Notes under the pieces: generated by a model
What the model was told of the DNA's origin: nothing
Databases searched by the model: none
What the model saw: the letters and a program-made list of their open reading frames with translations, nothing else
NCBI RefSeq assembly: GCF_000504305.1
Contig: NZ_KI632512.1
Coordinates: 2,292,250-2,356,249, forward strand
DNA length: 64,000 nucleotides
Reading direction: 5' to 3'
Source: Nitratidesulfovibrio termitidis HI1
GTDB lineage: Bacteria; Desulfobacterota; Desulfovibrionia; Desulfovibrionales; Desulfovibrionaceae
In this document: one piece after another, positions 42,145-62,600 of the stretch
Layout of the letters: the number at the start of each line of letters is the position of its first letter
How positions within the stretch are numbered: position 1 is the first letter of the stretch
Translations under genes and position numbers: made by a program

Positions 42145-42822
42145 ATGTTCTTCCAGGGCAAGGACTACATCCGTCCGTCCAAGAAACTGCGCCTGTTGTC
42201 CGTGGTGCAGGCGCTGACCGAAAACGAACGGCTCAGCCAGACCCAGCTGGCCCGGTTCAGCCGCACCAGCAGCGCCATGGTCAACCAGTACCTGGCGGAA
42301 CTGCACCGCGAAGGCATGGTCCAGTTCGCCCCGGTGAACCGCAAGAGCTTTGCCTACCGGCTGACCGACAAGGGGCAGGAGGCGCGGCGCAACATGATGG
42401 AACAGTACTGCGCCGAGATGGTGCGCGGGTTCGCCTCCATCAAGGAACTGGTGCGGCGGCGGCTGGAACCGCTGACGGAACGGCGCGACGCGCAGAACGC
42501 CGGGGCCCAGCCCTCCCCTCACACCACCCCGCTGCGCATCGCGCTCTTCGGCGCTGCCGAAACGGGCGAAGTGGTGCTGGCCGCGCTGGAGGGCACCCCC
42601 TTCGAGGTGACCATGGTGGTGGACAACGACATCGCCAAGCACGGCACCCCCTTCCACGGGCACGCCGTGCAGCCCCCGGCGGCGCTGCTGGCCGCCCCAG
42701 GCCAACTGGCCGTGGATGCGGTGGTGGTGGCCTCGTTCGCGCACCAGCGCGCCATCCAGCAGCAGTTGCTGGCCATGCCCGGCATGCCCGAATCGGCGCG
42801 GGAGGTCGTCGTGCTGTTATGA
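42145..42822 (+). CDS. Winged-helix protein with Rossmann-like C-terminal domain
   Basis: A 225-residue protein that begins the glycan cluster. Residues about 15-75 form a winged helix-turn-helix (SVVQALTENERLSQTQLARFSRTSSAMVNQYLAELHREGMVQF), similar to MarR-type folds. Residues about 130-225 (LRIALFGAAETGEVVLAALEGTPFEVTMVVDNDIAKHGTPFHG) look like a nucleotide-binding Rossmann domain of the kind found in sugar-modifying enzymes. It may be a ligand-sensing regulator of the cluster. Its stop overlaps the next start (ATGA), so it is coupled to the NeuB-type gene. No exact family name is known to me. Confidence 0.75.
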   Translation: MFFQGKDYIRPSKKLRLLSVVQALTENERLSQTQLARFSRTSSAMVNQYLAELHREGMVQFAPVNRKSFAYRLTDKGQEARRNMMEQYCAEMVRGFASIKELVRRRLEPLTERRDAQNAGAQPSPHTTPLRIALFGAAETGEVVLAALEGTPFEVTMVVDNDIAKHGTPFHGHAVQPPAALLAAPGQLAVDAVVVASFAHQRAIQQQLLAMPGMPESAREVVVLL

Positions 42823-44036
42823 ACGCACCCGCCAACATTCCGGACGGCACCGCCGCCCCCTGCATCACCCTGGCCTCCGGCAGGCGCATCGGTCCCGGTT
42901 GCCCGTGCTTCGTCGTGGCCGAGGTGGGCAACAACCACCAGGGCGACATGGAAACCGCACGGCGCATGGTGCGCGAGGCCGCCCGCGCCGGGGCGGACGC
43001 CGTGAAGTTCCAGAAACGCGACACCTCCGCCCTGCTCACCACCGAGGGCGCGCGTGCCGCCTACGGCGGCCCCAACAGCTTTGGCCCCACCTACGGCGAA
43101 CACCGCGACGCGCTGGAACTTTCCGCCGCCCAGTTCGCGGAACTGAAGCAACTGGCGGAATCGCTGGGCATGGTCTTTTTCGCCTCTGCCTGGGACGCGC
43201 CCAGCCTTGCCGTGCTGGCCGACCTGAAGGTGGAACTGCTGAAGGTCTGCTCCGCCGACGTGGTCAACGTGCCCATGCTGCGCCGGATGGCCGCGCTGCA
43301 CCTGCCGGTGGTGCTGTCCACGGGCATGAGCACCCTTGCCCAGGTGGACCGGGCCGTGGCCGAGCTTTCCGTCAGCCGGGGCGGCGTGGTGGTGCTGCAC
43401 TGCAACTCCAGCTATCCCTGCGACGAGGCGGACATCGCCCTGCCGGTGATGGACCAGCTGGCCCTGCGCTACGGCCTGCCCGTGGGCTATTCCGGCCACG
43501 AGCGAGGCATCGGCCCCAGCGTGGCCGCCGTGGCGCGCGGGGCGTGCCTTGTGGAACGCCACTTCACGCTCGACCGCACCCAGCGCGGCACCGACCATCA
43601 GGCCTCTCTGGAGCCGGACGATCTGGCCTGCATGGTCCGCATGATCCGCGAGGTGGAGCGGGCCATGGGCGTGACCGAAAAGCGCGTCACCCCGCACGAG
43701 GCGGCCATGGCCGTAAAGCTGCGCAAAAGCCTGGTTGCCGCGCGCGACCTGACGGCGGGCACGGTGCTGAGGCCGGACGACCTTACCGTCAAAAGCCCCG
43801 GCGACGGCCTGTCGCCGGAACTGTGGGACGCGGTGATCGGCAATTCCCTGACCGTGGACCTGCCGCGCGACGGGCAGCTTTTGCCCGACATGCTGGCCAT
43901 GCCCGTGCAGACCGGCGATGCGGGAGAAGCGGGGGACGGGGGGAATGAAGAGGTAGGACAGGACGGCGGCGACAGCGGGCCGGATTCCGGGGCCGGGACA
44001 GGGGCCGGAGCTGGGGCCGGAGCCGGGGCCGCGTGA
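42819..44036 (+). CDS. NeuB-type nonulosonate (sialic-acid-like) synthase
   Basis: Condenses phosphoenolpyruvate with an N-acyl hexosamine to a nine-carbon sugar acid. It is 405 residues. FVVAEVGNNHQGDMETARRMV (31-51) starts the NeuB TIM barrel; GADAVKFQKRD, LKVCSADVVNVPML, VLSTGMSTL, LHCNSSYPC and GYSGHERGI follow, and VERHFTLDRTQRGTDHQASLEP is the conserved active-site region. A C-terminal SAF (antifreeze-like) domain covers about 290-355. The last 35 residues are a Gly/Ala/Asp repeat tail not found in the family. Product could be a neuraminic, legionaminic or pseudaminic acid; sequence does not decide. Confidence 0.9.
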   Translation: MNAPANIPDGTAAPCITLASGRRIGPGCPCFVVAEVGNNHQGDMETARRMVREAARAGADAVKFQKRDTSALLTTEGARAAYGGPNSFGPTYGEHRDALELSAAQFAELKQLAESLGMVFFASAWDAPSLAVLADLKVELLKVCSADVVNVPMLRRMAALHLPVVLSTGMSTLAQVDRAVAELSVSRGGVVVLHCNSSYPCDEADIALPVMDQLALRYGLPVGYSGHERGIGPSVAAVARGACLVERHFTLDRTQRGTDHQASLEPDDLACMVRMIREVERAMGVTEKRVTPHEAAMAVKLRKSLVAARDLTAGTVLRPDDLTVKSPGDGLSPELWDAVIGNSLTVDLPRDGQLLPDMLAMPVQTGDAGEAGDGGNEEVGQDGGDSGPDSGAGTGAGAGAGAGAA

Positions 44037-45214
44037 TGCGCGTCGTCCATTTCGCCATAACCCCGCTGGCGGGCGCTCCGCTGCGCCTTGTCCGGGCGCT
44101 GAACGCCCACCTGCCCGGCTGCACGGCCCGGCTGGTGGACCTGACGCGCTACGGCAGCGAGGACTTCGGGCAGGACGTGGTGTTCGACGAAACGCCCGGC
44201 CTTGCCCGTGAACTGGCGGAAACAGCCGACATCCTGCACTTTCACAACTATCTGGACCTGGATTCGCGCCACTTCGCCCCCATCGACTTCCGGGCGCTGA
44301 CGGAAAGGGGCGCGCTTGTGATCCGCCAGTTCCACAGCGAGCCGGGGCTGGTGGCGGGCCGCATGGGCATCACCCCCGCCGCGCTGCTGGCCCAGCCCAT
44401 CCCTGCGCTGGTGGTGGGCCAGTTTCAGGAACGCTGCTACCCCCGCGCGCGGGTGGTGCCCAACCCCCTGCCCATCCACGACGCGGATCACCTGCCGCAC
44501 GACCCGGCCCTGCACGGCCCATTGCGCCACGACGTGTTCCTGTCCCCCACCCGGCTGCACTCGGCCTGGGCCGACCGCTGGAACACCAAGGCCCGGCCAG
44601 AGGCCGAAGCCGCCGTGCGTGCCGCCTGCCTGCCGCGCGGAGCAAGCTGGCACCTGATGCACAAGACGCCGCTGGCCGCCACCCTTGCCGCCAAACGGCT
44701 GTCCCGCATCGTGGTGGATGACCTTGTCACGGGCAGTTGCCACCTGACCGGGCTGGAAGGTCTGGCGCAGGGCAAGCCGGTGCTGGCCCATCTGGATGGC
44801 CGTTGCCGCCGCGTGCTGACCCGCATGGCGGAAACCGATGCCTGCCCGTTCATCGACGTGCGGCTGGAGGATGCGTCCCACGTGCTGGGACACTTGCTTG
44901 ACCATCCTGAAGACGCGCAAGAGGTGGGGCGCGCAGCGCGCGCGTGGATGGAGGCCCACTGGCAGCCGGAGCGCATTGCCGCCGCCTACGGCGCGGCCTA
45001 CGCAGATATGGCGCGCGATCCCGTGGCCGCCGCCCGCGACTGGCGGCAGCCGGACCTTGCGCTGGACACCCCGGCGGAACGATTTTTTGCCGTGACCCTG
45101 CCGGATGTGGTGCATGCGGCACGGCGTCAGGCGGCGCGGGGTGACGGGGCTGCGCCCGTCGCTACTCCATCCGCCGCCGCGAAAGCTGCACCTGCTGCTG
45201 GGGGTCGGGCATGA
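44036..45214 (+). CDS. Glycosyltransferase-like protein
   Basis: A 392-residue protein with a GT-B-like layout: an N-terminal Rossmann half (RVVHFAITPLAGAPLRLVRALNAHL, with ADILHFHNYLDLDSRHF) and a C-terminal half with VLAHLDGRCRRVLTRM and a helix that returns to the first domain. The donor-site E-x7-E of GT4 enzymes is not obvious, so activity is inferred. The ATG at 44036 overlaps the stop of the previous gene (TGATG); a GTG at 44033 is also possible. The Ala/Pro-rich end overlaps the next gene by four bases. Confidence 0.65.
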   Translation: MRVVHFAITPLAGAPLRLVRALNAHLPGCTARLVDLTRYGSEDFGQDVVFDETPGLARELAETADILHFHNYLDLDSRHFAPIDFRALTERGALVIRQFHSEPGLVAGRMGITPAALLAQPIPALVVGQFQERCYPRARVVPNPLPIHDADHLPHDPALHGPLRHDVFLSPTRLHSAWADRWNTKARPEAEAAVRAACLPRGASWHLMHKTPLAATLAAKRLSRIVVDDLVTGSCHLTGLEGLAQGKPVLAHLDGRCRRVLTRMAETDACPFIDVRLEDASHVLGHLLDHPEDAQEVGRAARAWMEAHWQPERIAAAYGAAYADMARDPVAAARDWRQPDLALDTPAERFFAVTLPDVVHAARRQAARGDGAAPVATPSAAAKAAPAAGGRA

Positions 45215-47181
45215 GCGCGCGTCATCCCCTTGCGCCCGTGCAGCCCGATCTGGCGGACCTGGCCCCCCTGCCCGGTCTTGCCCACTTACCCGGTCTTGCC
45301 CATTTGCCAGATCCGGCCACCATGCCCGCCGAGCAGTGCGTGCTGGCCGTGACGGAATCGTGGCTGGGCCGCGCGGACAGCGCCGTACGCCGGGTGCTGG
45401 CCCACGGCCTGCCCTCATCCACCCTGTACGACTGGATCATGGGCTGCGGACAGGTGCGCCACCAGCGCCTGTGCGACCCGGCCCGGCGCGACGTGAACAT
45501 CCCGCGCGCGGACTGGGACGTGGTGGCCGTCATTGCCGCGCGCGGCGGTTCGCGCGGGGTGCCCCGCAAGGCGCTGCGCACGGTGGGCGGCGTGCCGCTC
45601 ATCGCGCGGGCCGTGACGGCCTGCCGGTCTGTGGCGTCCGTCACGCGGGTCATGGTCAACACCGACTGCCCGGACATCGCGGCAGCGGCCCGCGCCGCCG
45701 GGGCGGACGTGCCGTTCCTGCGTCCGGCGGAACTGGCCACGGACGAGGCATCGCCGCTGGACGCCTGGGTCTTCGCGCAGGTGTGGATGCTGCTGGTGGA
45801 GCGGCGCGTGCCCGACTTTCTGCTGTCCGTTTCCGCCACCCACCCCTGCCTGCATCCGGACGAAATGCAACGTGCCGTGGACAGGCTGGCGGCGGCCAAC
45901 CGCCCCGCGCTCCAGACCGTGGCCCGGCTGCCCGCCGTATCGCTGGAATTCCTGACCCCGGATTTCCGCAACCTTCGGAATGTGGACGGCGGGCCGACCC
46001 CGGCGGAAGGTAGCGGGCCGGAAACCGATAGCCCGGACGGCGAACGGTTTCTGCAATGCGGGGCGTTTTCCATCACCTGCAACCGCCCGTACTACCATGT
46101 GCAGCCGTGGTTCCGGCAGCACATGACCGACATTCCCGCGCCCCCGGCGGACCCCATGGCCCACGTACTGTCCGCCCGACAGGGCGTGGACATCGACGAG
46201 CCGTGGGACCTCGCCACCTGCCGCCTGCTGCTGGACGGGGACGACCCGTTTCCGGCGTGCACCCCGGCGGACGTGGCCGCGCACGGCATCCCCGATGCGG
46301 GGAGCATGACGGCCCCTGCCGACCTTGCCTGCGTGGTGGTGCTGCCGCCCGAAGGGCCGGGCGGGCCAGATGAAACCGATCAATCGGATGAGATGAACAC
46401 ATCCGAAAGCGCCAAGGACACGGACGGCCCGTACCTGCACATCGCCGGTATTCCCGCGCCGTGCCGGGTGCTGGACGCGGTACGCACCGCGCTGCCCCAT
46501 GCCCCGCTGGCCGTGTGCGGCGAAGGGGCCATGGCCCGCGCCGTGGCCCGCCGTTACGGGCTGGACCTGCTGCCCCTGCCGGAATCTCTCGCGCAACGTC
46601 GCGCCGCATGGCCGGTACCCCTGCTGGCCGCTGGCGACCTTGCAGTGGGCAGCGCGGTCTGGTCCCTTCTCTGGGCAGGCCGCACCACCGCCGCGCCCGA
46701 ATGTTCCGGGCGGGACATCCTGTGCATCGACGGACGGGCCGCCCTGCTGGATGCGGACACTCTGCGCGACTTCGTCAGCTCGGCGCGGACCGCCCCTGCC
46801 CCCGCAAACGCCGGATGCGGCCTGCCCGCATGTTCCGTATCGCCCGCGCCCGTCCACCCCGCCCACCTCAAGCAGGTGGACGGCGCAGGCTCCGTGCTTT
46901 CCGCGCCGGGCGTTCCGGCCCGGCGGCAGGACCTGCCCGAAGTGCTGTGCCGCGACGGCGCGCTGACCCTGCTGCGCGCGGGGGGCAACGGTGCGGATGA
47001 CGCCCCCGGCATGTCCGCCTCCACGGAATCCCCCGCTCTGGGCTATCAGCCCATCCCCATGGGCCGCGCCCAAGCCACCCTGGTGGCCTCGCACCTCGAC
47101 GCCGCACGGGGCATGGCCCTGGCCACCCATGACGGGCACCCCGACATCACGCCCCAAGCCGCCACAGGAAACGCCTCGTGA
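45211..47181 (+). CDS. NeuA-type cytidylyltransferase with long extensions
   Basis: Activates a nonulosonic sugar as its CMP derivative. It is 656 residues, against about 230 for NeuA alone. Residues about 103-345 are the cytidylyltransferase: VVAVIAARGGSRGVPRKALRTVGGVPLIARAV is the CTP-binding motif, then VNTDCPDIAAAARAAGADVPFLRP, LSVSATHPCL and VDIDEPWDL. The N-terminal 100 residues include a doubled PGLAHL repeat. The C-terminal 280 residues contain a second, weaker nucleotide-binding-like region (PLAVCGEGAMARAVARRYGLDL; ILCIDGRAALLD) of unknown role. Start ATGA overlaps the previous stop. Confidence 0.85.
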   Translation: MSARHPLAPVQPDLADLAPLPGLAHLPGLAHLPDPATMPAEQCVLAVTESWLGRADSAVRRVLAHGLPSSTLYDWIMGCGQVRHQRLCDPARRDVNIPRADWDVVAVIAARGGSRGVPRKALRTVGGVPLIARAVTACRSVASVTRVMVNTDCPDIAAAARAAGADVPFLRPAELATDEASPLDAWVFAQVWMLLVERRVPDFLLSVSATHPCLHPDEMQRAVDRLAAANRPALQTVARLPAVSLEFLTPDFRNLRNVDGGPTPAEGSGPETDSPDGERFLQCGAFSITCNRPYYHVQPWFRQHMTDIPAPPADPMAHVLSARQGVDIDEPWDLATCRLLLDGDDPFPACTPADVAAHGIPDAGSMTAPADLACVVVLPPEGPGGPDETDQSDEMNTSESAKDTDGPYLHIAGIPAPCRVLDAVRTALPHAPLAVCGEGAMARAVARRYGLDLLPLPESLAQRRAAWPVPLLAAGDLAVGSAVWSLLWAGRTTAAPECSGRDILCIDGRAALLDADTLRDFVSSARTAPAPANAGCGLPACSVSPAPVHPAHLKQVDGAGSVLSAPGVPARRQDLPEVLCRDGALTLLRAGGNGADDAPGMSASTESPALGYQPIPMGRAQATLVASHLDAARGMALATHDGHPDITPQAATGNAS

Positions 47182-47924
47182 ACGCCGTATCCATCAACGC
47201 CGAACAGGGCGACCCGCGCCCCCGCTACCCCGACATCACCGACGCGCTGTTCTGGGACGCCTATTTCGCGTGGCGCGACGCCTCGCTGCTGTCGGTGGAA
47301 CGCTTCCACGCCCTGTACCTGGCCCTGCGCCACATCACGGCCCCTGATGCGGTTGATGCGGCTGATGCGGTTGATGCGGCCAGTGTGCCCGGCGCCTTGC
47401 TGGAATGCGGCGTGTACCGGGGCGGCTCGGCCTGCTTCTGCGCCGCCGTGCTGGCCGCGCTGGGGCAAACGGACCGCGACCTTTTCTGGTGCGACACCTT
47501 CCGGGGATTCCCCGACGGGGTGGAAGAAGCCTCCATCACCGGCGAAACCCTGCAAGCCTTCCCCAAGGACGACGTGCTGCCCTTGGCCATGGCCAACTTT
47601 GCCCGCACCGGCTACCCGGCGCAGCGGCTGCACGTGCTGCGCGGCCCGGTGCAGACCACCATTCCCGGCGGCCCCCTGCCGGATGCCATCGCCCTGCTGC
47701 ACCTGGATACCGACGACGCGGCCTCGGTACTCCACGAACTGACCCACCTCTACCCGCGCCTGTCGCCGGGCGGGGTGCTGTGCATCGACGACTACGGCCA
47801 CTTTCCTGGCGTGGGCCGCGCCGTGGACGCCTATTTCGCGGACCTTGCCCGCGCCGGGGGCACCCCGCCGCTGCTGACCCGCACCGACTACACGGGCCGC
47901 ATGGGCGTGAAGCCCCGCGCCTGA
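47178..47924 (+). CDS. TylF/MycF-like O-methyltransferase
   Basis: SAM-dependent methyltransferase of 248 residues resembling macrocin O-methyltransferase (TylF). LLECGVYRGGSACFCAAVLAAL is the SAM-binding first motif, FWCDTFRGFPDGVEE the conserved TylF D-T-F-G-F-P segment, and LLHLDTDDAASVLHELTHLYPRLSPGGVLCIDDYGHFPG contains the metal-binding Asp residues. Substrate is probably a sugar hydroxyl of the glycan. It starts with GTG overlapping the previous stop (GTGA). A DAVDAADAVDAA repeat lies near residues 56-67. Confidence 0.85.
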   Translation: MNAVSINAEQGDPRPRYPDITDALFWDAYFAWRDASLLSVERFHALYLALRHITAPDAVDAADAVDAASVPGALLECGVYRGGSACFCAAVLAALGQTDRDLFWCDTFRGFPDGVEEASITGETLQAFPKDDVLPLAMANFARTGYPAQRLHVLRGPVQTTIPGGPLPDAIALLHLDTDDAASVLHELTHLYPRLSPGGVLCIDDYGHFPGVGRAVDAYFADLARAGGTPPLLTRTDYTGRMGVKPRA

Positions 47925-48051: not shown

Positions 48052-51000
48052 ATGACCAGCACGACAGACACCATCATGGCCGACACTTCCCATACCGCCG
48101 CCATACCAGACATGGCGGGCCTGTCCCGCTGCAATCCCCGGCTGGCCGCGTGGTTCGCCTGGTCGCACGACGATTGGCAGGGTGCGGACGCCGCCGGGGC
48201 TCACGTACATCTGGGCTGCGGCGGCGCGGTGCTGGACGGTTTCGTGAACCTGGACTTCCTGCCCCACGACGAACGGGTGCGCGAATGCCGCCTGCTGGAC
48301 GTATGGCCCCGCCGCCTTGCCGGGCAGGTGGCCGCCTTCTATGCGGAAGACGTCATCGAACATTTCTATCTCACCGAGCAACTGTACATCCTGTGCTCCA
48401 TGAACGTGCTGCTACGGCCCGGCGGCGTGGCCCGGCTGCTCACCCCGGACATCGGCCAGTTGTGGACCTACGGGCAGCGCTTCGACCCCGCCACACTGGT
48501 GGGCAGCGGCGACTATTTCGCCGACGTGATGCGCTGCCGCAACGGCATGGACGCCGTGAACACCGGCCTGCGCATGGGCGGCCACCGCTGGCTGCACGAC
48601 TTCACCAGCCTGCGCCGGGCAGCGGCGGAATGCGGCTTTACCGCGCGGCGTACCCCCTGCGCCGCGTCGGACGACCCCAAGCTGAGCAACATCAACCTGC
48701 GCGACGAATCGGGCATTTCCTTCGCGGCGGAGATGCGCAAGACGCGCCCCCTGCGCCACCTGCTGGTGTGGCCGGAACACATCGCCAACGCCGTGCCCGT
48801 GGCGGGGGGCGATCCCGGCGCATCCCCGAATGTCGCGCTGCCCAGCTGCCTTGACGGCAGTGTGGACGCCATCCAGCCGGTGTTCCGCGCCGTCACAGGC
48901 GACCCCGGCATCACCTACCGCCTGCCCGACGTGGCCGTGCAACGCATCGCCATGGTCAACGTGCGTTCGGCCAACCTGTGCGAATTCCGCGAACACAACT
49001 TCGCCAAGGCCTACTTCCGGCTGGAGGAAAGCGGCGCCGTGTACGCCGACCGCACCCTGCATTCCGTGCCGCACATGAACGGCTTCACCCGCGCCGATGT
49101 GGAAACGGCCATGCGCGGCGAAGGGGTGCTGCGCTCCGTCCGCTTCGACCCTTCTGAGCGGGAGGGCGACCTGTTCACCGTGGGGCCGCTGGAGCTGTTC
49201 CTGTACGACGATGCACCGGAAGGTGGCGACGGCGGGGACGGTGGCAACGGGGACCGTGCGACGGGCGCGGGCGAGCGGCCCAAAGGCCGGAGCATGACGA
49301 CGGTTGGAGCCAACGTGGCCGCCACGCAGGACGCCCCGACAAAGAGCGCCCCGTCCGGCAACATGACATCAGGCACCGCCGGTACCGGCACCCTGCCCCC
49401 GCACCTCGAAGACCACGTTATGGCCACCCCGTGCCGTCAGGGCGTCATCCATCATTTCGACTTCGACGGCCCGGTAGGCATGGCGTTGGCCATTTACGGC
49501 GAATGGGCGCAGGCGGAACTGGACGCGCTGGCCCCCTACGTGCCTGCGGGGGGCCGCGTGCTGGACGTGGGGTCCAACGTGGGCACCCACGCCGTGGCCT
49601 TTGCCCGCATGATCGGGGGGACCGGGCCAGTCGGGTCGGGCGGCCACGTCACCGCGCTGGAACCGCAGGCAGAGGTATTCGCCCTGCTGCAACGCACCGT
49701 GGCCGTGAACGGCCTTGCGGACGTGGTCACCCCGATACGGGCCGGGGCGGCGGGACGGGCGGGCTCGGCGCGGGTGCCGCGCATCGCCGCGCCGGAAGGG
49801 CAGAATCTGGGCGCAGTGCGCCTGCTGGATGCGGACACCGCACCGCAGGACACGACCCACCCCACGGACGAAGTTCCCCTGCTGACCATCGACGGGCTGG
49901 GCCTGCACCTGCCCGTGCCGGAAAGGCTGGGTACTGGCGGACGGCTGGACCTGATCAAAGTTGACGCCGAAGGGGACGAGGCCGCCATCCTGCGCGGCGC
50001 GGCAGACACCATCCGAACCTGCCGCCCGGTGCTGCATCTGGAATGCCCCGGCTTTTCGCGGGCCTGGCCCTGCGCACGGCAGGCGCTGGCCTGGGACTAC
50101 GCGGTGTTCCACCTGCGCCTGCCCGCCTTCAACCCCGCCAATTTCCGAGGGGCCAGCCGCAACGTGTTCGGCGCGGCGGAAGAAGGCGCGCTGCTGTGCA
50201 TCCCGCGCGAACGGCTGGAAGACGGCAGCCTGCCCGCGCCCTGCGGCACGGAAATCCGCGACCCTGCCCATCTTGCCCGCGCCCTGCTGGAAACCCGCGC
50301 CTACGGCCAGCCGGAAGAACGCGTCCCCGCCGCCGTGCGGCTGGACCTGGCCCTGTCCGATCTGCGCCGCAAGCGGGCGGAGGAACACTGCGTGGCGGCC
50401 AACGCCCGCTCCGGCCGCCAGCACGGGCGCATCACCACCCTGCGCACGGCAGCCAGCGCGGCGGAAGCCCTGCTGGCCGGGACGGCGGGGATGGAGGGCA
50501 CAACGGCGACCGCCCCGGCAGCCCCGACAGTTTCGTCAGTCACGGAAGACGCCCGTGCCCGCCTGCTGGCCGCGCTGGACGCCACCGCTCCGGAACGCCC
50601 GGCCATCGACGAGCCGGACACCCGCGAGCCGTGGCCCGCCCCGCCCGACATTGCAGATGCAACCATCTGGACCGGACTGGCGGCGCGCCGGGCAACGCTT
50701 TCTGCGGTATCAGACAATACGCCGCAGCGCCCGGTCATCGACGTCATCGTGCCGGTGTACGCGGGAACGGACCAGACCCTGGCCTGTCTGCACTCCGTGC
50801 TTGCCGCCGACCCTGAACCGGCAGACGCCGCCGCGCCCCGCGCCCACGTGGTGGTCATCAACGACGCCAGCCCGGAACCGGGACTGGCGCAGGCCCTGCG
50901 CCGCCTTGCCGGGCTGGGGCTGGTGGAACTGGTGGAGCACCCGGCCAACCGGGGCTTCGTGGCCTCGGTCAACACGGGCATGGCCCTGCACCCGGAGCGC

Positions 51001-53034
51001 GACGTGGTGCTGCTGAATTCGGACACCGTGGTCTTTCCCGGCTGGTTGCCCCGCATGGCGGCACACCTGACCGCCCGGCCCGACGCGGGCAGCGTCACCC
51101 CGCTGTCCAACAACGCCACCATCTGCAGCTACCCGGTGACCGAGCGCGACAACCGCGCCGGGCTGGAACTGGACTCCGCCGCGCTGGACGCGCTGGCCGC
51201 CACGGTCAACGCCGGAGTAGCCGTGGACATTCCAACGGCGGTGGGCTTCTGCATGCTGATCCGCCGGTCCTGCCTGACGGAAACCGGTCCCTTTGACGAA
51301 GCCACCTTCGGCAGGGGCTACGGCGAGGAAAACGACTTCTGCATGCGCGCCGCCGCGCGGGGCTGGCAGCATCTGCTGGCCGCCGATGTCTTCGTGCGCC
51401 ACGCGGGCGAGATGTCATTCGGAGATGATGCCGCACCGCTGAAGGAAGCAGCCTTTGCGACCATCCAGCGGATGTATCCCGACTATCTGCGCACCGTGGC
51501 CGCCCACTGCGCGGCGGACCCGGCCCGCCCGGCCCGCCGGGCGCTGGACCTTGCCCGGCTGCGCGGCGCGCTGGCGCGGCGCTTTCCCGCCACGGCGCAC
51601 ACGTCTGGCACAACTACGGCGCACACGCCTGGCACCGACACAGTCCGCCCGGTGCTGATGGTCACCCACAACTGGGGTGGCGGCACCGAACGCCACGTGC
51701 AGGACCTGTGCGACCGGCTGGCGGCGGAAGGCACGCCCGCGCTGGTGCTGCGCCCGCGCGGGAACGACGCGGGCTGCGTGTGGACCCTGAACCTGCCTGC
51801 CTCCGCGCATGGGTCTGCCCCTGCCTGCGGCGCTGGCCAGAACTGCGGCGCTGGCCCCCTGCACCTGCCCAATCTGGCCTTCGACCTGCCGCCCGACTTC
51901 GGCGCGCTGCTGGAAGTGCTGGCCGAACTGCGCGTGGCCCACATCCACGTGCACAACCTGGCCGGATATCCCCACGCCACGCCGGAACTGCTGCCGCTGA
52001 TGGCCCGACTGCTGGAAATCCCCTGCGACGTCACCGCACACGACCTGTCCGCCCTGTGCCCGCGCATCACCTGCATCGGGCCGGACGGCTATCCCTGCCC
52101 CACGGCGCAGGGCGATGACGGCGGAAAGGCGCATGGCGCACCGTGGCGTTGCGGGGCCTGCATCGCTGCGGAAACGCCGCAACTGGGCAACACGGACATC
52201 GTGCGCTGGCACGCGGCATGGAGCACGCTGCTGGACGACGCGCGCGCCATCTTCACGCCCAGCGGCGACACGGCGCGGCGGCTGGCTGCCCATTTTCCCG
52301 CCTGTGCGGCGCGCATCACCGTGCGGCCCCATCCGGAAACATCGCCCCTGTCCCAAGCGGTCATGGCCCATACGGCCATGCCCCGACCCGAGATCACCGC
52401 CGCCCCTACCCCGCGCAAACCCGGCGAAGCGCTGCGGGTGGCGGTGATCGGAGCCATCGGCCCGCACAAGGGATCGCACGTGCTGGAAGCCTGCGCCCGC
52501 CACGCCCGCGAGGCCGGGCTGCCGCTGCACTTCACCGTGGTGGGCTACACCGACCGCGACGAGGTGCTGCACGATCTCGGGGTGACCATCACGGGCCGCT
52601 ACGACGCGGACGAACTGCCGGGCCTGCTGGTCCCTGCAGGTGGGAACGGGACGGACGAAAACGGGGCGAGCGGCTACCACCAGGCCTTCCTGCCCGCCGT
52701 GTGGCCCGAAACATGGTCCTACACCCTGTCCGAGGCGGTGCTGGCCGGGCTGTATCCGGTAACCTTCGACCTGGGCGCGCCCGCCGAACGCATGGCCGCG
52801 TGGGACTACGGCCTGCGCCTGCCGGTGGATATGATGCGCGACCCGGCAGCCATCAACGCCGCCCTGCTGGCCTGCACGCCCGCAGCCCCGCCAGCAGGAC
52901 TGGCGCACGCCATCCTGAGCGCCGGGGACTACCCCGTGCCGTTCCGGGCCAGTTACTACGGCCTTCCGGATGCGGAAAAATCCTGGGGGGATACCGTGGA
53001 GAGCGCGGCACCGCCCGCCCAGGAACGAACATGA
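48052..53034 (+). CDS. Giant fusion: two methyltransferase and two glycosyltransferase domains
   Basis: A 1660-residue cytoplasmic protein. Residues about 45-240: class I methyltransferase (VHLGCGGAVLDGFVNLDFL; AEDVIEHFYLTEQ). About 280-390: unassigned. About 470-740: FkbM-type methyltransferase (RVLDVGSNVGTHAVAFARM near 500; DLIKVDAEGDEAAIL near 633). About 890-1150: GT2 glycosyltransferase (IDVIVPVYAGTDQT; VLLNSDTVVFPGWL near 990; GRGYGEENDFCMRA near 1087). About 1200-1645: GT4-like domain (VLMVTHNWGGGTERHV; GAIGPHKGSHVLEAC near 1465; WPETWSYTLSEAVLAGLYP near 1547). Low-complexity linkers join them. It may build and methylate a short oligosaccharide in one complex. CAGGA precedes the ATG weakly; a Met at 48076 is an alternative. 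Confidence 0.85.
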   Translation: MTSTTDTIMADTSHTAAIPDMAGLSRCNPRLAAWFAWSHDDWQGADAAGAHVHLGCGGAVLDGFVNLDFLPHDERVRECRLLDVWPRRLAGQVAAFYAEDVIEHFYLTEQLYILCSMNVLLRPGGVARLLTPDIGQLWTYGQRFDPATLVGSGDYFADVMRCRNGMDAVNTGLRMGGHRWLHDFTSLRRAAAECGFTARRTPCAASDDPKLSNINLRDESGISFAAEMRKTRPLRHLLVWPEHIANAVPVAGGDPGASPNVALPSCLDGSVDAIQPVFRAVTGDPGITYRLPDVAVQRIAMVNVRSANLCEFREHNFAKAYFRLEESGAVYADRTLHSVPHMNGFTRADVETAMRGEGVLRSVRFDPSEREGDLFTVGPLELFLYDDAPEGGDGGDGGNGDRATGAGERPKGRSMTTVGANVAATQDAPTKSAPSGNMTSGTAGTGTLPPHLEDHVMATPCRQGVIHHFDFDGPVGMALAIYGEWAQAELDALAPYVPAGGRVLDVGSNVGTHAVAFARMIGGTGPVGSGGHVTALEPQAEVFALLQRTVAVNGLADVVTPIRAGAAGRAGSARVPRIAAPEGQNLGAVRLLDADTAPQDTTHPTDEVPLLTIDGLGLHLPVPERLGTGGRLDLIKVDAEGDEAAILRGAADTIRTCRPVLHLECPGFSRAWPCARQALAWDYAVFHLRLPAFNPANFRGASRNVFGAAEEGALLCIPRERLEDGSLPAPCGTEIRDPAHLARALLETRAYGQPEERVPAAVRLDLALSDLRRKRAEEHCVAANARSGRQHGRITTLRTAASAAEALLAGTAGMEGTTATAPAAPTVSSVTEDARARLLAALDATAPERPAIDEPDTREPWPAPPDIADATIWTGLAARRATLSAVSDNTPQRPVIDVIVPVYAGTDQTLACLHSVLAADPEPADAAAPRAHVVVINDASPEPGLAQALRRLAGLGLVELVEHPANRGFVASVNTGMALHPERDVVLLNSDTVVFPGWLPRMAAHLTARPDAGSVTPLSNNATICSYPVTERDNRAGLELDSAALDALAATVNAGVAVDIPTAVGFCMLIRRSCLTETGPFDEATFGRGYGEENDFCMRAAARGWQHLLAADVFVRHAGEMSFGDDAAPLKEAAFATIQRMYPDYLRTVAAHCAADPARPARRALDLARLRGALARRFPATAHTSGTTTAHTPGTDTVRPVLMVTHNWGGGTERHVQDLCDRLAAEGTPALVLRPRGNDAGCVWTLNLPASAHGSAPACGAGQNCGAGPLHLPNLAFDLPPDFGALLEVLAELRVAHIHVHNLAGYPHATPELLPLMARLLEIPCDVTAHDLSALCPRITCIGPDGYPCPTAQGDDGGKAHGAPWRCGACIAAETPQLGNTDIVRWHAAWSTLLDDARAIFTPSGDTARRLAAHFPACAARITVRPHPETSPLSQAVMAHTAMPRPEITAAPTPRKPGEALRVAVIGAIGPHKGSHVLEACARHAREAGLPLHFTVVGYTDRDEVLHDLGVTITGRYDADELPGLLVPAGGNGTDENGASGYHQAFLPAVWPETWSYTLSEAVLAGLYPVTFDLGAPAERMAAWDYGLRLPVDMMRDPAAINAALLACTPAAPPAGLAHAILSAGDYPVPFRASYYGLPDAEKSWGDTVESAAPPAQERT

Positions 53035-53081: not shown

Positions 53082-54104
53082 ATGAACCCGGACCAACACC
53101 TCCATGCCGCCACCCGCTCCGGCCATCCGCTGATCTCGGTGGTGGTGCCCAGCTACAACCATGGGCGGTACATCGGGGCCTGCCTCGATTCGCTGATGTT
53201 CCAGGACTACCCCAACTTGGAAGTCGTCATCACCGACGACGCCTCCACCGACGATTCCGTGGCGGTAATCCGGCGCTTTCTGCGTGACGTGGCCGGGGCC
53301 ACCGCCTCGTACGCCTGCCATTACGACGCGAAGACGGACGCCATAGAGCGCACCGTGCACCCCCGCTACGCCCGCACGGGCCGCCGCATCGTGTTCCTGC
53401 GGGCCGAGGCCAACGGCGGCTCCACCGCCAACTACAACCGGGGCCTTGCCCAGTGCACGGGCGAGTACTGCACCTTTGTCCCGGCGGACGACATCTGCCA
53501 CCCGCAGCTGTTCTCCACCCTGGCCCGCCCGCTGCGGGACGACGAGGCCGACTTTGCCTACGCCGACATGTTCGTGGTGGACGACGACCTGCGCATCCTG
53601 CGCGAATTCCGCCTGCCGGAGCATTCCTTCGACGCGTCGTTCCGCGACTGGTACCTGTGCGGCGTGGCCAAGCTGTACCGCCGCGCCCTGCACGACCGCT
53701 TCGGCCCCTTTGACGAAACCGCCGACGCCGACGACCACGAATGCTTCCTGCGCTTTGCCCTTGGCGGGGCACGCTTTGTCCATGTACCGCACACCCTGTA
53801 TTCGGTGCGCAGCCACGAAGGGCGCGAAAACGGCCTGCACGCGCCGGGGCGCTTTGCCCGGCTGCTGGAGCATTCCAAACGGCTCACCCTGATGGCGCGC
53901 GAACGGGAACCCGCCGCGCCCGGCGCGTGGCGCGAGGAAATGGTGAGGGCGGGCGCCTCGGACGGCACACAGGTTGCCAGCGGTCCGCTCCCGGTGGCCG
54001 AGCGCGTGGTGCTTACCGTCGAGGAACGCAGCTTCTTCACGGAAGGAAACGGCGCGGCCACGCCGCCGCCCCTGTCAGACGACGAGGAGGCCCGCCGTGG
54101 GTGA
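53082..54104 (+). CDS. GT2-family glycosyltransferase
   Basis: Inverting glycosyltransferase with a GT-A fold, 340 residues. LISVVVPSYNHGRYIGACLDSLMFQ is the N-terminal donor-binding motif, EVVITDDASTDDSVAVI follows, and the metal-binding D-x-D region is FVPADDICHPQL. FDETADADDHECFLRFALGG corresponds to the acceptor-side ED motif. The last 70 residues are low-complexity. AAGGAG precedes the ATG. The stop overlaps the GTG of the next gene by eight bases. Confidence 0.9.
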   Translation: MNPDQHLHAATRSGHPLISVVVPSYNHGRYIGACLDSLMFQDYPNLEVVITDDASTDDSVAVIRRFLRDVAGATASYACHYDAKTDAIERTVHPRYARTGRRIVFLRAEANGGSTANYNRGLAQCTGEYCTFVPADDICHPQLFSTLARPLRDDEADFAYADMFVVDDDLRILREFRLPEHSFDASFRDWYLCGVAKLYRRALHDRFGPFDETADADDHECFLRFALGGARFVHVPHTLYSVRSHEGRENGLHAPGRFARLLEHSKRLTLMAREREPAAPGAWREEMVRAGASDGTQVASGPLPVAERVVLTVEERSFFTEGNGAATPPPLSDDEEARRG

Positions 54105-55572
54105 CCTGGCCCTGCCGCACATCCTGCCCCGCGTGCGCGATGCCCGGCGAGAGGCGCGCAAGTATGCAAACTTCCTGCTGGTCCTGCGCTCCCGCCGTGC
54201 CGGGGTCGCGCGCGTGGCGCACCACCCCTTCGACCTCACCGTGGACTGCGCAACCCTGTGCCAGTTGCACTGCCCGTACTGCGCCGTGGGCAACGCCACC
54301 ATCCGCCGCAAACCCTCCCTGATGGACGCCGCCCTGCACGAACGGCTGGCCGCGGACGTGGCCCCGGACCTGTTCCTGGCCTGGTACTTCAGCGCCGGTG
54401 AACCGCTGCTGCACCCGCGCCTGCACGAACACCTGGCCCGCACCGCCGGGGAAGAAGCGTTCACCGTGGTTTCCACCAACCTCAGCGTCCCCCTGACCCC
54501 GGCCCGGCAGGAGGCCTTGCTGCGCTCCGGCCTCGGCATGCTCAGCGCATCCGTGGACGGGGCCAGCGCGGCGACCTATGCCCAATATCGGCGCGGGGGC
54601 GACTTTGGGCTGGTCATGGACAACCTGGCGGCACTGGCCCGGCGCAAACGGGAAATGGGGCTGCAATTTCCCCTGCTGGAATGGCGCTTTCTGCTGTTTG
54701 CCCACAACCAGCACGAGGTTGACGCGGCCCGCGCCATGGCCACGGACATGGGGCTGGATCTGCTGGAATTCTTTCCCGGTTATGCCCTGCCACCCGGCGA
54801 CCCCGGCGAACAGGGGGTGCACCCCATGACCATCCCCATGCCGGGGCAGCCCATTTCCGGCCCGGCCTACGAGGCGGGCCTTGCCCGGCGGGAGACGCTG
54901 GTGCAGCGACTGGTGGCGGACGGCATGCCGCCCGCGCCCGCCCCTGTGGACACGGCGGTCGATACGGCGGAGGAGACTGCGGAAGGCAGTGGGGCAGAAG
55001 GACGCGGTGGAAAGGACAAGGCCCGCCGCCGTTGCGACTGGCTGTACTACAGCGGCATGATCTACCCGGACGGGGCGTTCGGTCCGTGCTGCGTGGCCAC
55101 CGACGCCGACGACGACTTCACCCGGCTGGACGCGTACCCCGACTTTAGCGCGGCGTGGAACGCCCCGGCCTTTCTGCGCTCGCGCGCGGCCTTTGCGGCG
55201 GGCGATGCGGGAAATGGCGCGAAGGACCGCGCAGGCGAAAATCTTTCCGGCACCGGCGGCTCGGCAGGCACGGTGTGCGACCGCTGCCCCCTGCCGGTGG
55301 CGCAGGAACTGCAATTCGTGCAGAAGGTGCGCGGCATCCTGCGCAACGCCCCGGACTGGGTGGTGCGCATCCTGGCCGCAGCACCTGGCGAATTCTTCCT
55401 GCCCGCCGACCAGCGCAGGCTGCCCGTGGAACTGGCCGCCCTGCACCAGCCAGAGGCCCGCGCCCTGCCGCCCGACCCGGACGCGCTGGCCCGGCTGCGC
55501 GCGCTGGCGGCATCCCATCCCGACCCCGCACTGACCCGTTGCGCCGACATTCTGGAGCACGGTCATGCCTGA
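54097..55572 (+). CDS. Radical SAM/SPASM-type protein
   Basis: Radical SAM enzyme of 491 residues. The 4Fe-4S motif is CQLHCPYC (Cys55, 59, 62) after DLTVDCATL; LFLAWYFSAGEPLLHPRL follows as in SPASM enzymes. The C-terminal half has further cysteines (RRRCDWLYYSGMIYPDGAFGPCC; VCDRCPLP) that probably bind auxiliary clusters. The GTG at 54097 is chosen because AGGAGG lies 6 bases before it; no ATG is available at a suitable place. The substrate is unknown; position in the cluster suggests modification of a sugar or carrier. Confidence 0.85.
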   Translation: MGDLALPHILPRVRDARREARKYANFLLVLRSRRAGVARVAHHPFDLTVDCATLCQLHCPYCAVGNATIRRKPSLMDAALHERLAADVAPDLFLAWYFSAGEPLLHPRLHEHLARTAGEEAFTVVSTNLSVPLTPARQEALLRSGLGMLSASVDGASAATYAQYRRGGDFGLVMDNLAALARRKREMGLQFPLLEWRFLLFAHNQHEVDAARAMATDMGLDLLEFFPGYALPPGDPGEQGVHPMTIPMPGQPISGPAYEAGLARRETLVQRLVADGMPPAPAPVDTAVDTAEETAEGSGAEGRGGKDKARRRCDWLYYSGMIYPDGAFGPCCVATDADDDFTRLDAYPDFSAAWNAPAFLRSRAAFAAGDAGNGAKDRAGENLSGTGGSAGTVCDRCPLPVAQELQFVQKVRGILRNAPDWVVRILAAAPGEFFLPADQRRLPVELAALHQPEARALPPDPDALARLRALAASHPDPALTRCADILEHGHA

Positions 55573-55632: not shown

Positions 55633-56823
55633 ATGACACAGGATCGCAGCACCCGGAACGACAACACCGGAGACGCCCCCTGCTCCGCAGAACACCCCGG
55701 AGCAGCCCCGAGCGCATCACCGGGCGCAGCCCGACCCTTCCTTGCATGGCTGGCTGACCAGCGCACCCAGGACGGCATACTGCTGCTGGGCGATGCCCGC
55801 CCGTTCTTCCATGACGAGGCCGCCTACACCGCCCACCACGGCGAAGATCCCGCCCCGCTGGACGCGGGGCAGGGGCTGGCGGCCCTGCTGCGGGCCACGG
55901 GTGCGGACATGTCCGCCCCGGCGCTGGAGATAGGCTGCGGCTTCGGCTACCTGAGCCTTGGCCTTGCGGTGGACAATCCCTTTCCGCTGCTGCTGCTTAC
56001 CGATACCTCACCGGGCTTCCTGCGCATTCTGGGTGATCGGCTGAACGCCCACGGCGTGGCGTGGCAGGCAGGCGACGACGCCCAGGCCACCCCCGGCATG
56101 CGCGCCCCCGGCATGTCTGCTCCTGACATGTCCGCTCCTGACATGTCCTGCACCCGCATACCGGTCCCCGACATGTCCGGCCCCGGCGCCGTCCGGCTGG
56201 GCATCCTTTCCGGCGACGCCATGCAGGAAATTCCCGACGCCAGTCTGTCGTGCATCGCCATGCGCGCCACCCTGCACCATGTGGCCGACGTGGACGCCTT
56301 TCTGGCCCAGGCGGCGCGGGTGCTGCGGCCCGGCGGTCACCTGGTGTTCGAGGAACCCTGCCGCGAGGCCCTGCTGCTGATGGGCGTGCTGGTGGCCCAG
56401 ATGCCGGAGCTGGCCGCCGCGCGCGGGGTGGAAGTGACCCCGCGCCAGCTGGAACTGGTGGACCTGTTCCGGCGCATGGTGGAATTCTACTGCCGCCAGG
56501 ACATCGACAAGAGCACGGCGGAAGACAAGCACCTGTTCCACCCCGTGGAAATCGCCGCGCGCTGCCGGGCGCACGGCTTCGACACCGCCGTCTACGCCAA
56601 CACCACCCTGGCATCGCTGAAGTACCTGCACGGCGAATCGCCCCTGCCGCCCACCTTCTTCCACGACACCACCCGCGCCTACATCGGCGAGGTGTGCCGC
56701 ATGCCGGAACTGGTCCCCCTGTTCGACGCCACCATCGCCGCATCGTGCGCCTACATCGACGCCTGCTCGCGCGGGGGGCGCGGCCCGCACTACATCAGCG
56801 TGTTCGACGCGCGGCGGGGGTAG
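55633..56823 (+). CDS. SAM-dependent methyltransferase (class I)
   Basis: A 396-residue protein. SAPALEIGCGFGYLSLGLAVDN is the SAM-binding motif, LSCIAMRATLHHVADVDAFLAQAARVLRPGGHLVFEEPC the post-motif region typical of Methyltransf_11/25 domains. The second half is helical with an unknown fold (RRMVEFYCRQDIDKSTAEDKHLF). Between the motif and the rest lies a repeated APDMS-type insert (about residues 155-190). AGGAG precedes the ATG. Last gene of the high-GC part of the cluster. Confidence 0.82.
   Translation: MTQDRSTRNDNTGDAPCSAEHPGAAPSASPGAARPFLAWLADQRTQDGILLLGDARPFFHDEAAYTAHHGEDPAPLDAGQGLAALLRATGADMSAPALEIGCGFGYLSLGLAVDNPFPLLLLTDTSPGFLRILGDRLNAHGVAWQAGDDAQATPGMRAPGMSAPDMSAPDMSCTRIPVPDMSGPGAVRLGILSGDAMQEIPDASLSCIAMRATLHHVADVDAFLAQAARVLRPGGHLVFEEPCREALLLMGVLVAQMPELAAARGVEVTPRQLELVDLFRRMVEFYCRQDIDKSTAEDKHLFHPVEIAARCRAHGFDTAVYANTTLASLKYLHGESPLPPTFFHDTTRAYIGEVCRMPELVPLFDATIAASCAYIDACSRGGRGPHYISVFDARRG
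56101..56145 (+). repeat. Three tandem 15-bp units in the methyltransferase gene
   Basis: cgcgcccccggcatg, tctgctcctgacatg and tccgctcctgacatg (56101-56145) encode (R/S)APxM pentapeptides; a diverged unit recurs near 56170. Unit length and the terminal catg resemble the pspF repeat at 7816-7935. Confidence 0.75.
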
Positions 56824-59674: not shown

Positions 59675-62600
59675 ATGCCAAGAAAGATAGTAATCAGTGG
59701 CAAGTATATCTCCGAGAAAGACTTTCAGCGCGTCTCCGGAGATACACCACTCTCGTTTGTAGTGCTCCCCAAGCTGGCAGAGATGTCGGAACATGACATC
59801 CAGAGGCTTCATACCGAAGCCCGCGACGCCGATCTTGTGATCATGGCCATGTTCGGCAGCAACCCTTCGCGCCTCGCCGAACTCAAACTTGACGCCATCA
59901 AGACTCCGAAGGCGTATTGGAGCTTCGACTCGCACCACCAGTGGCCAGCCGAGCGCAACATCCAGCATTTTTTTGACAAACTTTTCATCTCGCACTCGCC
60001 ATATCGAAAATTCTTTCCGGCCCACATGACGGAGTGGCTGCCTTGCTGCTTTGTGCGGTTTGGAACTGACGAACTGATCCAGCTCATCCTTACCGCCAAC
60101 AAAGCCAGGAATCTTGATATCGCATTTCCGCACAAGCCGTACAACATAGGCAACCGCAACGCCATTGCGCATGCCATCCACAGCACGCTCAAAAGCACGC
60201 GGTTGCGATACCATGTCGGGCCAGTAGATTCTGGTGATCCGTACATGAGACTTATCCAGAATGCCCATGTCGTGCTCAATGTCTCGCTGATAGACGACCT
60301 TAACATCAGAAACTTTGAAGCATGGGCACTCAACAGAATTCCCCTGGCAACCCCCACTCCCGACCATGGTCTTCTCGGAGAACTCGGAAACGCTGCGGTG
60401 TTTTTCCGTAGATCACTTGAAGACTTTGAAGAACGTCTTGGTGATGCATTGGATATCGCAAGGAGCCAAGACTTCAATACTGCTCCGCTCATTTTGAACG
60501 GGCATCTCCAGGTGCATCGCTATGTGCAAATGGTAAACACAGTACTCAACACAAACTATACCGTAAAACCCGTCACCATTCCTTCACTTGGCCCAGAAAA
60601 ATTCCCTGAAATCACAGCGCCTGCCCCACGTCAAACTTCTTTCAATGCCCACGGAAGCAATATTGGCGTCATTGCACTTTCTCACGCTGAAATCTCGCCA
60701 ACACCCTTCTTTTGCAATACACGCCTTCAGATAGAAGACAACATCGGCGAAGCAATACATATCCATTGGAGGAACATCAGGCTTGATTTCACCATGCGCG
60801 ATTTCCTGAGCCTGAGCCAACAGTTCAAGACCGCCCTTGCGGCCCTTGGCCCCAAGCGCCCCCCCGCAACAGAAGGCCAGATCAGCCTTCCCGATGCCTA
60901 TGCCCGCGAACTAGGCCCCCTTGCCCACGCCATTACCGGCGCCTCCATCGAGCATGTGCGCCTGAACGACCTGAAGGTCGTCGCCTGCACCCAAGACGGC
61001 CCCACACTTCGGTGGACAGCAAAGGACATTCCGCAATCCACGGCCTACGCCTACCTTGAAGGGGATACGCAAGCATACGTGGCGTATCACAACACGGCTA
61101 AAGATCTGCAGCATCACAACGCGCACAACTTCGAAACACTCTTTCATTCCATCCTGAAGAATGGCTACCCCTACAATGGAGAGTTCATCACGCTTCACGG
61201 GGATGAACCCTACATACGCGACGGGCAGCACCGCGCGTGCATCCTGCATCATGTTTATGGCAACATCCGTATCCCGATCTTGCGGTTGCACTTCAGGGAT
61301 GGCGCCGCATGGCGCATGAAAATTTCCCCTGGCACTGCCATGCCGCAAGAAGACGCCGCCTCCGAAGCCAAGACTCTCGACGAACTGCTCTACGTACACG
61401 CGAAAACCGCCACCTCTCCCTGCTCCATTTTGATAGCCCAACCCGTGACTGACGAGATTCCCAAACTTGTGGGCGCACTGTTCAGAAAAAAAAGGGCAGC
61501 CATTCATGTGGCTACCACTGACAACACGCCCTTTCCCTTGCCCCGGCAAAACGCGCAAGTCCCTGTCGTTCACACTGTGACAGGTCAACTCGGCGATATC
61601 CTCGATCGGTGGAAAACACCACTCGACCTCCTGATCATTGAAGACACTTCCGGACTGACCGCGCCTGACATCAGGAAGTGCAAAACCCTGCTTACGCAAA
61701 ACGGGATATGGGCCTTTGCGAATTCTGAAAACGACGCACTTTCTCCGTACAGAAAAAATGCCGTCACCCACAATGGCACGACCTTCTTTCACGGAACCAG
61801 TGACGCGCTCTGCCCTGAACCCCGGAAGGCCGCGCAACATGGCGCAGTCCCGGCAGATGCAGGCGCCGAAGCCCAATACCAACCCTGCGCCTCGAACCAT
61901 GGCAAGATACTTATTGTCCGCGCCGATGCCATTGGCGACGGCATCATTTTCTCGTCAGCACTTTCCGCAATCCGCAACCGCTTTCCGGACTCGCAAATCG
62001 ACCTGCTGTCAAAGAAGGGCTCTGCCGAACTATACGAGCACTGCCCTCATATCGACAGAGTCATCCCGTTTGAAGAAAAGGAAATCGCCAATAACCACAC
62101 TGCGGCAAAGGCTCTCATTGAAAGGCTGCGGGCCACTCACTACGACCTCTCCATAAATTCCGTCTTTTCGCGCGACTACGTATCAGACCTGCTCGCAACG
62201 GAGTGCCTTGCAGGTTGCAGGATCGCGTTCCGTGGCGATATGTGCAATGTCCGCCACGAGTTCCACAATGCGTTCACCAGCGCCTACACGCATTTTATTG
62301 ACACTACGGAAAGCGTCGAGCTTCACAGATACAACGACCTGCTGCGCGCACTGGGCGCAGATACCCGCGAGCCCCTGCATCCTCAGGTATGGCTGTCTCC
62401 GGATGATGAGGCAGCAGCAGAAAAACTGCTCCTGGCCGCCAAGAGCCGAAAGCTTATCGCCGTCTTTCCTGGAGCGCTCCACTATCACAAACGCTACCCC
62501 AGGCTCGGCGAGGCGCTTGAAGACTATGCGGACCATACTGCCGTCGTGCTTGGTGGTCCCGACGCCCTGCAGGGCCAGGACACCTTTTGTGCTGGCTTTC

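Follow-up and report, generated by a model that had tools for sequence, protein, structure and literature searches.

A single reading frame of Nitratidesulfovibrio termitidis HI1 joins two unrelated methyltransferase modules to a GT2-GT4 glycosyltransferase core

What could a bacterium make with one protein that carries two methyltransferases and two glycosyltransferases? This question is raised by a 1660-residue, uninterrupted reading frame of Nitratidesulfovibrio termitidis HI1, located in a stretch of 64,000 nucleotides (contig NZ_KI632512.1, positions 2,292,250 to 2,356,249; hereafter the window). From the N- to the C-terminus, the encoded fusion protein consists of a class I S-adenosylmethionine (SAM) methyltransferase (MT1), a conserved block of unassigned family (U), an FkbM-type methyltransferase, and glycosyltransferases (GT) of families GT2 and GT4 (Table 1). 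We consider the protein most likely to be an unusual arrangement of an already known type, with two methyltransferases, two glycosyltransferases and a putative binding module. Judging from its sequence, it would probably act as a modular oligosaccharide synthase, adding two sugars and O-methylating the resulting glycan.

The presence of four enzymes in one frame had been proposed in an initial annotation of the window, and it was borne out by Pfam matches together with the homology of MT1. The FkbM module matched PF05050 at residues 505-665 (E 4e-13, 50.2 bits against a cut-off of 22.7) and the NCBIfam model TIGR01444 (E 2.5e-16, 60.4 bits against 37.7), and it contains a GSNVG loop and a DAEG stretch, which we take to be motifs of the FkbM family. 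The GT2 module matched PF00535 (Glycos_transf_2) at residues 898-1013 (E 9e-13, 48.9 bits against 23.3), with a Glyco_tranf_2_3 match reaching residue 1120. For the GT4 module, the N-terminal half matched PF13439 at residues 1210-1427 (E 2e-7, 31.8 bits against 28.5), while the C-terminal half has no Pfam match of its own and displays visible GPHKG and PETWSYTLSE stretches. Pfam gave no direct match for MT1, U or residues 670-883, and NCBIfam gave none for MT1 and U. Searching the PDB sequences with the whole protein also gave no match at E 0.01. MT1 is nevertheless, by homology, a class I SAM methyltransferase, because it is homologous to a 214-residue frame from another genome of the phylum (locus L161; 30% identity over 196 residues, E 1e-16) in which the SAM-binding motif is kept. 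That frame itself lies barely above the Methyltransf_11 cut-off (22.2 bits against 21.2). The alignment of the two retains the pattern LGCG...NLD...EDVIEH...LRPGG...TPD, that is, the LGCG loop, an acidic residue following the next strand, the ED/SHxxEH stretch and LRPGG...PD; in MT1 the loop reads HLGCGG at residues 53-58. The modules are separated by short linkers (residues 389-448, 801-888 and 1166-1198), rich in Ala, Gly, Thr, Ser, Pro and Asp and strongly divergent among species; their low complexity, also noted at the outset, was confirmed by composition.

To judge the glycosyltransferases residue by residue, we used a core alignment of 58 rows, comprising the window, four orthologues and 53 other sequences. 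Eight GT2 residues (D938, N989, D991, E1092, E1093, N1094, D1095 and H1117) and six GT4 residues (G1210, G1211, H1330, D1331, K1473 and E1553) are identical in all 58 rows. The DXD-type motif of the GT2 module is NSD at residues 989-991, with N and D invariant, and residues 1092-1095 read EEND. In one GT2 module of the Klebsiella protein ORF6-O7, an N-x-D sequence was reportedly treated as a metal motif and mutated (PMC11231755). As far as sequence can tell, the catalytic motifs are intact. The initial annotation had named a loss of key catalytic residues from several domains as a result that would speak against it; we found the motifs of the modules preserved, with all fourteen of these glycosyltransferase residues invariant.

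We examined the fusion in eight genomes of the genus, including the one studied here. Five of them, representing five species (HI1 and genomes G001, G004, G005 and G006), encode it at full length, with 85-88.5% identity among all pairs of the five proteins. The earlier concern that the fusion might be unique to one assembly was therefore not realized; its presence in five species rules out an artefact of a single assembly. The ratios of nonsynonymous to synonymous substitution (dN/dS), given as means over the 10 pairs that these five sequences form, range from 0.10 for MT1, the most constrained module, to 0.38 for GT4, while constraint on the linkers is much weaker (0.58-0.63; Table 1). Each module is under purifying selection. 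A chance open frame in GC-rich DNA was likewise ruled out by the selection on the modules and by their homology. Of the other genomes, G007 holds fragments, with a GT4 end followed by the GT2 and radical SAM genes on one contig and NeuB with the GT-like gene on another; these agree with a fusion without proving it. The absence of the gene from G003 was set aside as a counterexample, as its contig of 5698 bases stops about 100 bases past the NeuB match.

A scan based on six peptide patterns covered 84,980 species genomes and gave 353 stretches that code for relatives. The best 80 were kept and correspond to 78 loci, three from the genus (L029-L031) and 75 from outside it; these are best matches and not a census. 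All 75 of these best-scoring outside loci carry GT2 and GT4 within one frame. With a profile grown from locus L055, an N-terminal class I methyltransferase was found fused to this pair in 10 of the 75 (L038, L040, L052, L055, L056, L057, L058, L059, L065 and L069). These proteins of the Comamonas and Azoarcus type resemble the fusion in joining a class I methyltransferase to a GT2-GT4 core; their GT2 modules are 50-55% and their GT4 modules 29-35% identical to those of the fusion, and they differ from it in that no FkbM module was found in them. By eye, a long segment in each of L038, L040 and L055 resembles a coiled coil. At five loci the GT2-GT4 gene has a methyltransferase gene no more than 1 kb away (iterated MT1 profile, E below 1e-20), namely L052 (on the opposite strand), L062, L068, L078 and L097, and all five genes match Methyltransf_11 of Pfam. 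The three from Sphingobium (L068, L078 and L097) were detected by the iterated profile and are at most putative orthologues of MT1. At one further locus (L085) an FkbM gene overlaps the GT2-GT4 gene by 4 bases. Without iteration, the MT1 profile reached only L161, L056, L160, L052 (5e-4) and L097 (0.03) outside the genus. That the same kinds of modules occur in some relatives as separate neighbours, or in other fusions, fits a single machine for both the assembly and the methylation of a glycan. The initial annotation had described these enzyme families as usually separate proteins; this is so for the neighbouring genes of some relatives, but not for GT2 and GT4, which commonly share a frame, nor for methyltransferase-GT-GT proteins, which are already known.

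Closer to the species itself, the matches listed among 348 genomes of the order that lie outside the genus and span both GT2-GT4 halves are frames of about 660-880 residues. Around 11 such loci (L149-L159), a search of frames of at least 100 residues at E 1e-5 gave no homologue of MT1, U or FkbM. In a tree of 93 GT2-GT4 cores, the genus forms a single clade with support of 1.0, separate from the GT2-GT4 proteins of its own taxonomic family, and adjoins an alphaproteobacterial group with weak support of 0.69. The tree hints that the core has another origin, although we do not rely on it. A frame of 2886 residues in another genome of the phylum (G170; L160, 4277-12934, + strand) combines an MT1-like methyltransferase and a capsule-synthesis domain with three GT2 stretches, two GT1/GT4 stretches and tetratricopeptide repeats.

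The prevalence of the GT2-GT4 half raises the alternative that this half alone acts and that some of the other modules are dead or structural, MT1 for example serving as a SAM-binding scaffold. The divergence of MT1 past Pfam detection would also fit. We consider this highly unlikely, since MT1 is the module under the strongest constraint and its SAM-site pattern aligns with that of its relatives, and since FkbM scores above the cut-offs of both family models.

The block behind MT1 had been noticed at about residues 280-390, and it proved to be real: placed here at about 275-388, U is 91-97% identical in the four other species and has a dN/dS of 0.20. No Pfam or NCBIfam model matched residues 262-392, which contain it, and a profile of MT1 and U together, run on 395 genomes of the phylum, matched 12 genomes besides its own and reached U in none. 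A pattern of the type LRxDPxxRxG stands behind the N-terminal methyltransferase in all 10 fused MT-GT2-GT4 proteins (with DL for DP in L056), and when seven of these blocks were aligned with U, it stayed in register. The blocks were chosen with a motif derived from U, which matched 16 loci outside the genus, 10 of them being the fused proteins. Eight blocks were compared with the U profile by hhalign; seven belong to fused proteins and the eighth (L102) to a separate frame of 686 residues. The comparison gave P 6.5e-4 and a probability of 27.6% over 58 columns, a P value flattered by this choice of blocks. The score was 28.1, against at most 19.3 for column shuffles (none of 100 as high), 10.0 for the reversed block and at most 13.1 for 23 decoy windows, controls that do not correct for the choice. 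Because of it, the kinship of U with the block behind the methyltransferase of the Comamonas-type proteins is only suggestive. An AlphaFold2 model of MT1 and U (five close orthologues) was not usable, with a mean predicted local distance difference test score of 37.7 and scattered strands in the U region only. In the Klebsiella O7 protein, a domain resembling immunoglobulin (Ig) folds or carbohydrate-binding modules (CBM) is reported between the terminator and the glycosyltransferases (PMC11231755). U is probably a beta-sandwich, carbohydrate-binding-like module that holds the acceptor.

Taken as a synthase, the protein would work as follows. The C-terminal GT2 and GT4 modules would add two sugars in sequence from nucleoside diphosphate (NDP) donors, building the glycan in the cytoplasm; FkbM and MT1 would O-methylate the growing glycan while U holds the acceptor, and the variable, low-complexity linkers would tether the modules so that intermediates could pass between them. 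The product may be a short part of a surface or protein glycan, with the lipopolysaccharide (LPS) core, a lipid carrier, flagellin or another protein as candidate acceptors. Here we infer the order of action, the O-methylation, the binding role of U and the shortness of the product.

Several observations weigh against such a synthase. At position 1561, where the EX7E motif of GT4 has its second glutamate (E1561), only 9 of the 58 rows show this residue, and MT1 lacks any direct family match. At 64 of the 75 outside loci, profile searches found neither a fused L055-type methyltransferase nor FkbM. Beside the fusion, no exporter or acceptor protein was recognized. Furthermore, genome G002 encodes an in-frame variant of 888 residues (L025/L031) with FkbM and GT4 and without MT1, U and GT2, so these three can be lost, seemingly as whole units. 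On its contig, a metagenome sequence of 4879 bases, the variant is flanked by a CMP-synthetase-like gene and a GT2 gene, as elsewhere, with no TylF match.

Proteins of comparable layout are known, and we set the fusion beside them by their published descriptions. WsaE of Geobacillus stearothermophilus combines a methyltransferase with two glycosyltransferases, by which an S-layer glycan is built and capped (PMC2943079). Described as one soluble protein, it shares with the fusion the N-terminal methyltransferase and the two GT modules, but it has one methyltransferase and two rhamnosyltransferases, whereas the fusion has two unrelated methyltransferases, U, GT2 and GT4. ORF6-O7 of Klebsiella pneumoniae, with at least 1414 residues, contains a methyltransferase, a kinase, an Ig-like domain, a coiled coil and two GT2 modules (PMC11231755). 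Like the fusion, it has an N-terminal methyltransferase, an Ig/CBM-like domain comparable to the putative binding module U, and two C-terminal glycosyltransferases, and the NXD motif of its second GT2 resembles the NSD of the fusion. In contrast, it has a kinase, a coiled coil, a second GT2 and wzm/wzt genes nearby, where the fusion has FkbM and GT4 and its genome no Wzt_C match. GpsX of Xanthomonas citri, a protein of 675 residues whose mutation alters exopolysaccharide and LPS, has the same order of GT2 followed by a GT-B-type domain (PMC3364877) and, unlike the fusion, no methyltransferase modules in its description. What sets the fusion apart is the joining of two unrelated methyltransferases with a GT2-GT4 core and U, methyltransferase-GT-GT proteins being known from WsaE and ORF6-O7. 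Among the open-access papers listed in searches on Desulfovibrio glycan genes and on multidomain GT/methyltransferase proteins, no description of this combination appeared.

The shared layout of N-terminal methyltransferases and two C-terminal GT modules raises the possibility of a polymerase that terminates its own chain, as in the WsaE or ORF6-O7 type, in which GT2 and GT4 would polymerize a repeat, the methyltransferases would cap it and an ATP-binding cassette (ABC) transporter would export it. However, in the Klebsiella systems a coiled-coil ruler splits the terminator from the glycosyltransferases (PMC11231755), whereas the linkers of the fusion are short, of low complexity and hypervariable, and no coiled coil is obvious in them, as judged without a coiled-coil predictor. 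In addition, Wzt_C had no match in the genome, and the ABC transporter genes that scans turned up near the cluster are of the oligopeptide type. Some Wzt proteins have no Wzt_C domain. Overall, a chain terminator appears improbable. For the modular synthase, a short glycan finished in the cytoplasm is likelier than a long O-antigen, because there is no recognized exporter nearby and no obvious coiled-coil ruler.

The fusion gene is embedded in a cluster of nonulosonate and glycan genes (Table 1).

Table 1. Coordinates of the fusion gene, its modules and linkers, and the surrounding cluster in the window
Feature	Coordinates	Strand	Evidence and remarks
Winged-helix protein	42145..42822	+	Overlaps NeuB start codon; heads cluster
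NeuB-type nonulosonate synthase	42819..44036	+	PF03102 E 1e-73; start codon assigned by eye
GT-like protein	44033-45214		Between NeuB and CMP-sugar synthetase
CMP-sugar synthetase, PseF/NeuA-like, with C-terminal extension	45211..47181	+	PF02348 E 8e-14
TylF-type O-methyltransferase	47178..47924	+	PF05711 E 6e-30
Whole fusion gene	48052..53034	+	Open frame; full-length orthologues in 4 further species
MT1, class I SAM methyltransferase (by homology)	48187..48786	+	Residues 46-245; homology to L161 frame; dN/dS 0.10
U block	48874..49215	+	Residues 275-388; interspecies identity, dN/dS 0.20, profile match to MT-GT2-GT4 blocks
Linker 1, low complexity, hypervariable	49216..49395	+	Residues 389-448; composition; dN/dS 0.63 over 390-448
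FkbM module with C-terminal extension	49396..50451	+	Residues 449-800; Pfam core 505-665; dN/dS 0.22
Linker 2	50452..50715	+	Residues 801-888; composition; dN/dS 0.58
GT2 module	50716..51546	+	Residues 889-1165; PF00535, motif residues; dN/dS 0.24
Linker 3	51547..51645	+	Residues 1166-1198; composition; dN/dS 0.59
GT4 module	51646..52941	+	Residues 1199-1630; PF13439, motif residues; dN/dS 0.38
Separate GT2 glycosyltransferase	53082..54104	+	PF00535 E 1e-25
Radical SAM protein	54097..55572	+	PF04055 E 9e-11 on longer frame 53974-55572; start codon assumed
Separate class I methyltransferase	55633..56823	+	PF08241 E 2e-12

The genes for NeuB, the GT-like protein, the cytidine monophosphate (CMP)-sugar synthetase, the fusion, the separate GT2, the radical SAM protein and the separate methyltransferase occur together in all five full-length genomes; the CMP-nonulosonate genes are part of this conserved cluster. 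TylF is full-length in four of the five; in G004 tblastn found remnants only (a C-terminal piece of 94 residues and a piece of 32 residues; L022 13547-13831) between the CMP-synthetase and the fusion. Downstream of the last methyltransferase, the frames differ among the species looked at. NeuB scored best as NeuB_NnaB (322 bits, below the cut-off of 400) and the synthetase as PseF (78 bits, below 206), and because both best matches lie below cut-off, the particular nonulosonic acid cannot be named. The winged-helix protein at the head of the cluster has a C-terminal half that looks like a nucleotide-binding (Rossmann) fold by eye, and may be a cluster regulator. Between 47178 and 56823 the cluster holds at least four methyltransferase modules (TylF, MT1, FkbM and the gene at 55633-56823) in addition to the radical SAM gene. 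Because of these modules, the cluster product is probably heavily methylated.

The usual donors of GT2 and GT4 enzymes are NDP-sugars and not CMP-sugars. Transfer of the NeuB-derived sugar by the fusion itself is for this reason unlikely; NeuB and the CMP-synthetase would supply the nonulosonate, and another enzyme would probably attach it to the same glycan.

The initial annotation had considered flagellin as a possible target, and a cytoplasmic enzyme that uses flagellin directly as the base for a methylated glycan would be in keeping with a cluster that combines nonulosonate synthesis and several methyltransferases with no recognized flippase or polymerase. A Pfam scan of the gene calls at 42145-63100 revealed no flippase, polymerase, polysaccharide exporter or ABC transporter; elsewhere in the genome, a Wzx-like match (PF01943) lies above cut-off at 2427735, a second one below cut-off at 4085092, and a Wzy_C match at 4019663. 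In enterobacterial flagellin islands, many glycosyltransferases with methyltransferase domains are described, and sialic-type sugar genes in some islands (PMC4875605); FkbM genes are present in Geobacillus islands (PMC5109656). The Enterobacteriaceae proteins resemble the fusion by description in joining both activities, but they are mostly GT41 and linked to flagellar genes. Although the genome of HI1 has seven flagellin-domain matches, none lies in the window; the nearest (2124783-2125193) is about 167 kb before it, a Maf/MptE-like gene at 4139545 is about 1.8 Mb away, and we found nothing that ties the cluster genetically to flagellar genes. We therefore regard flagellin glycosylation as rather unlikely. 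What stands of the single machine first proposed is the set of intact, selected modules fused in five species; flagellin as its target is not supported.

More tentatively, and with considerable doubt, the modular synthase may be a self-contained assembly line, which would add two sugars, methylate at two sites by two unrelated methyltransferases and be guided by its own carbohydrate-binding module. It would then form the centre of the synthesis, in this genus, of a nonulosonate glycan with many methyl groups, and modules gained or lost between species would change that glycan.

Other features of the region were observed in passing. A second NeuB match, with the Wzx-like match about 4 kb further on (G000 2423363-2428511), lies about 67 kb past the window and is perhaps a separate nonulosonate system. 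At 59675-63100 (+ strand), a second large fusion of 1141 residues contains a Glyco_trans_1_2 glycosyltransferase and a heptosyltransferase-like GT9 domain. The GC content at 57-63 kb is 0.44-0.56, compared with about 0.7 directly upstream, and the region may be recently acquired. Just past the window, L164 (8303-12283, - strand, about 65053-69033 in window numbering) holds another large glycan fusion, a frame of 1326 residues in which a CDP-glycerol glycerophosphotransferase domain accompanies two GT2 stretches.

The fusion indicates that a putative binding module and two methyltransferases of unrelated families can be joined to a common GT2-GT4 core, and that selection retains such a protein across a genus. 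With its conserved start and its downstream part variable within the genus, the cluster offers an entry to the little-known glycans of these sulfate reducers.

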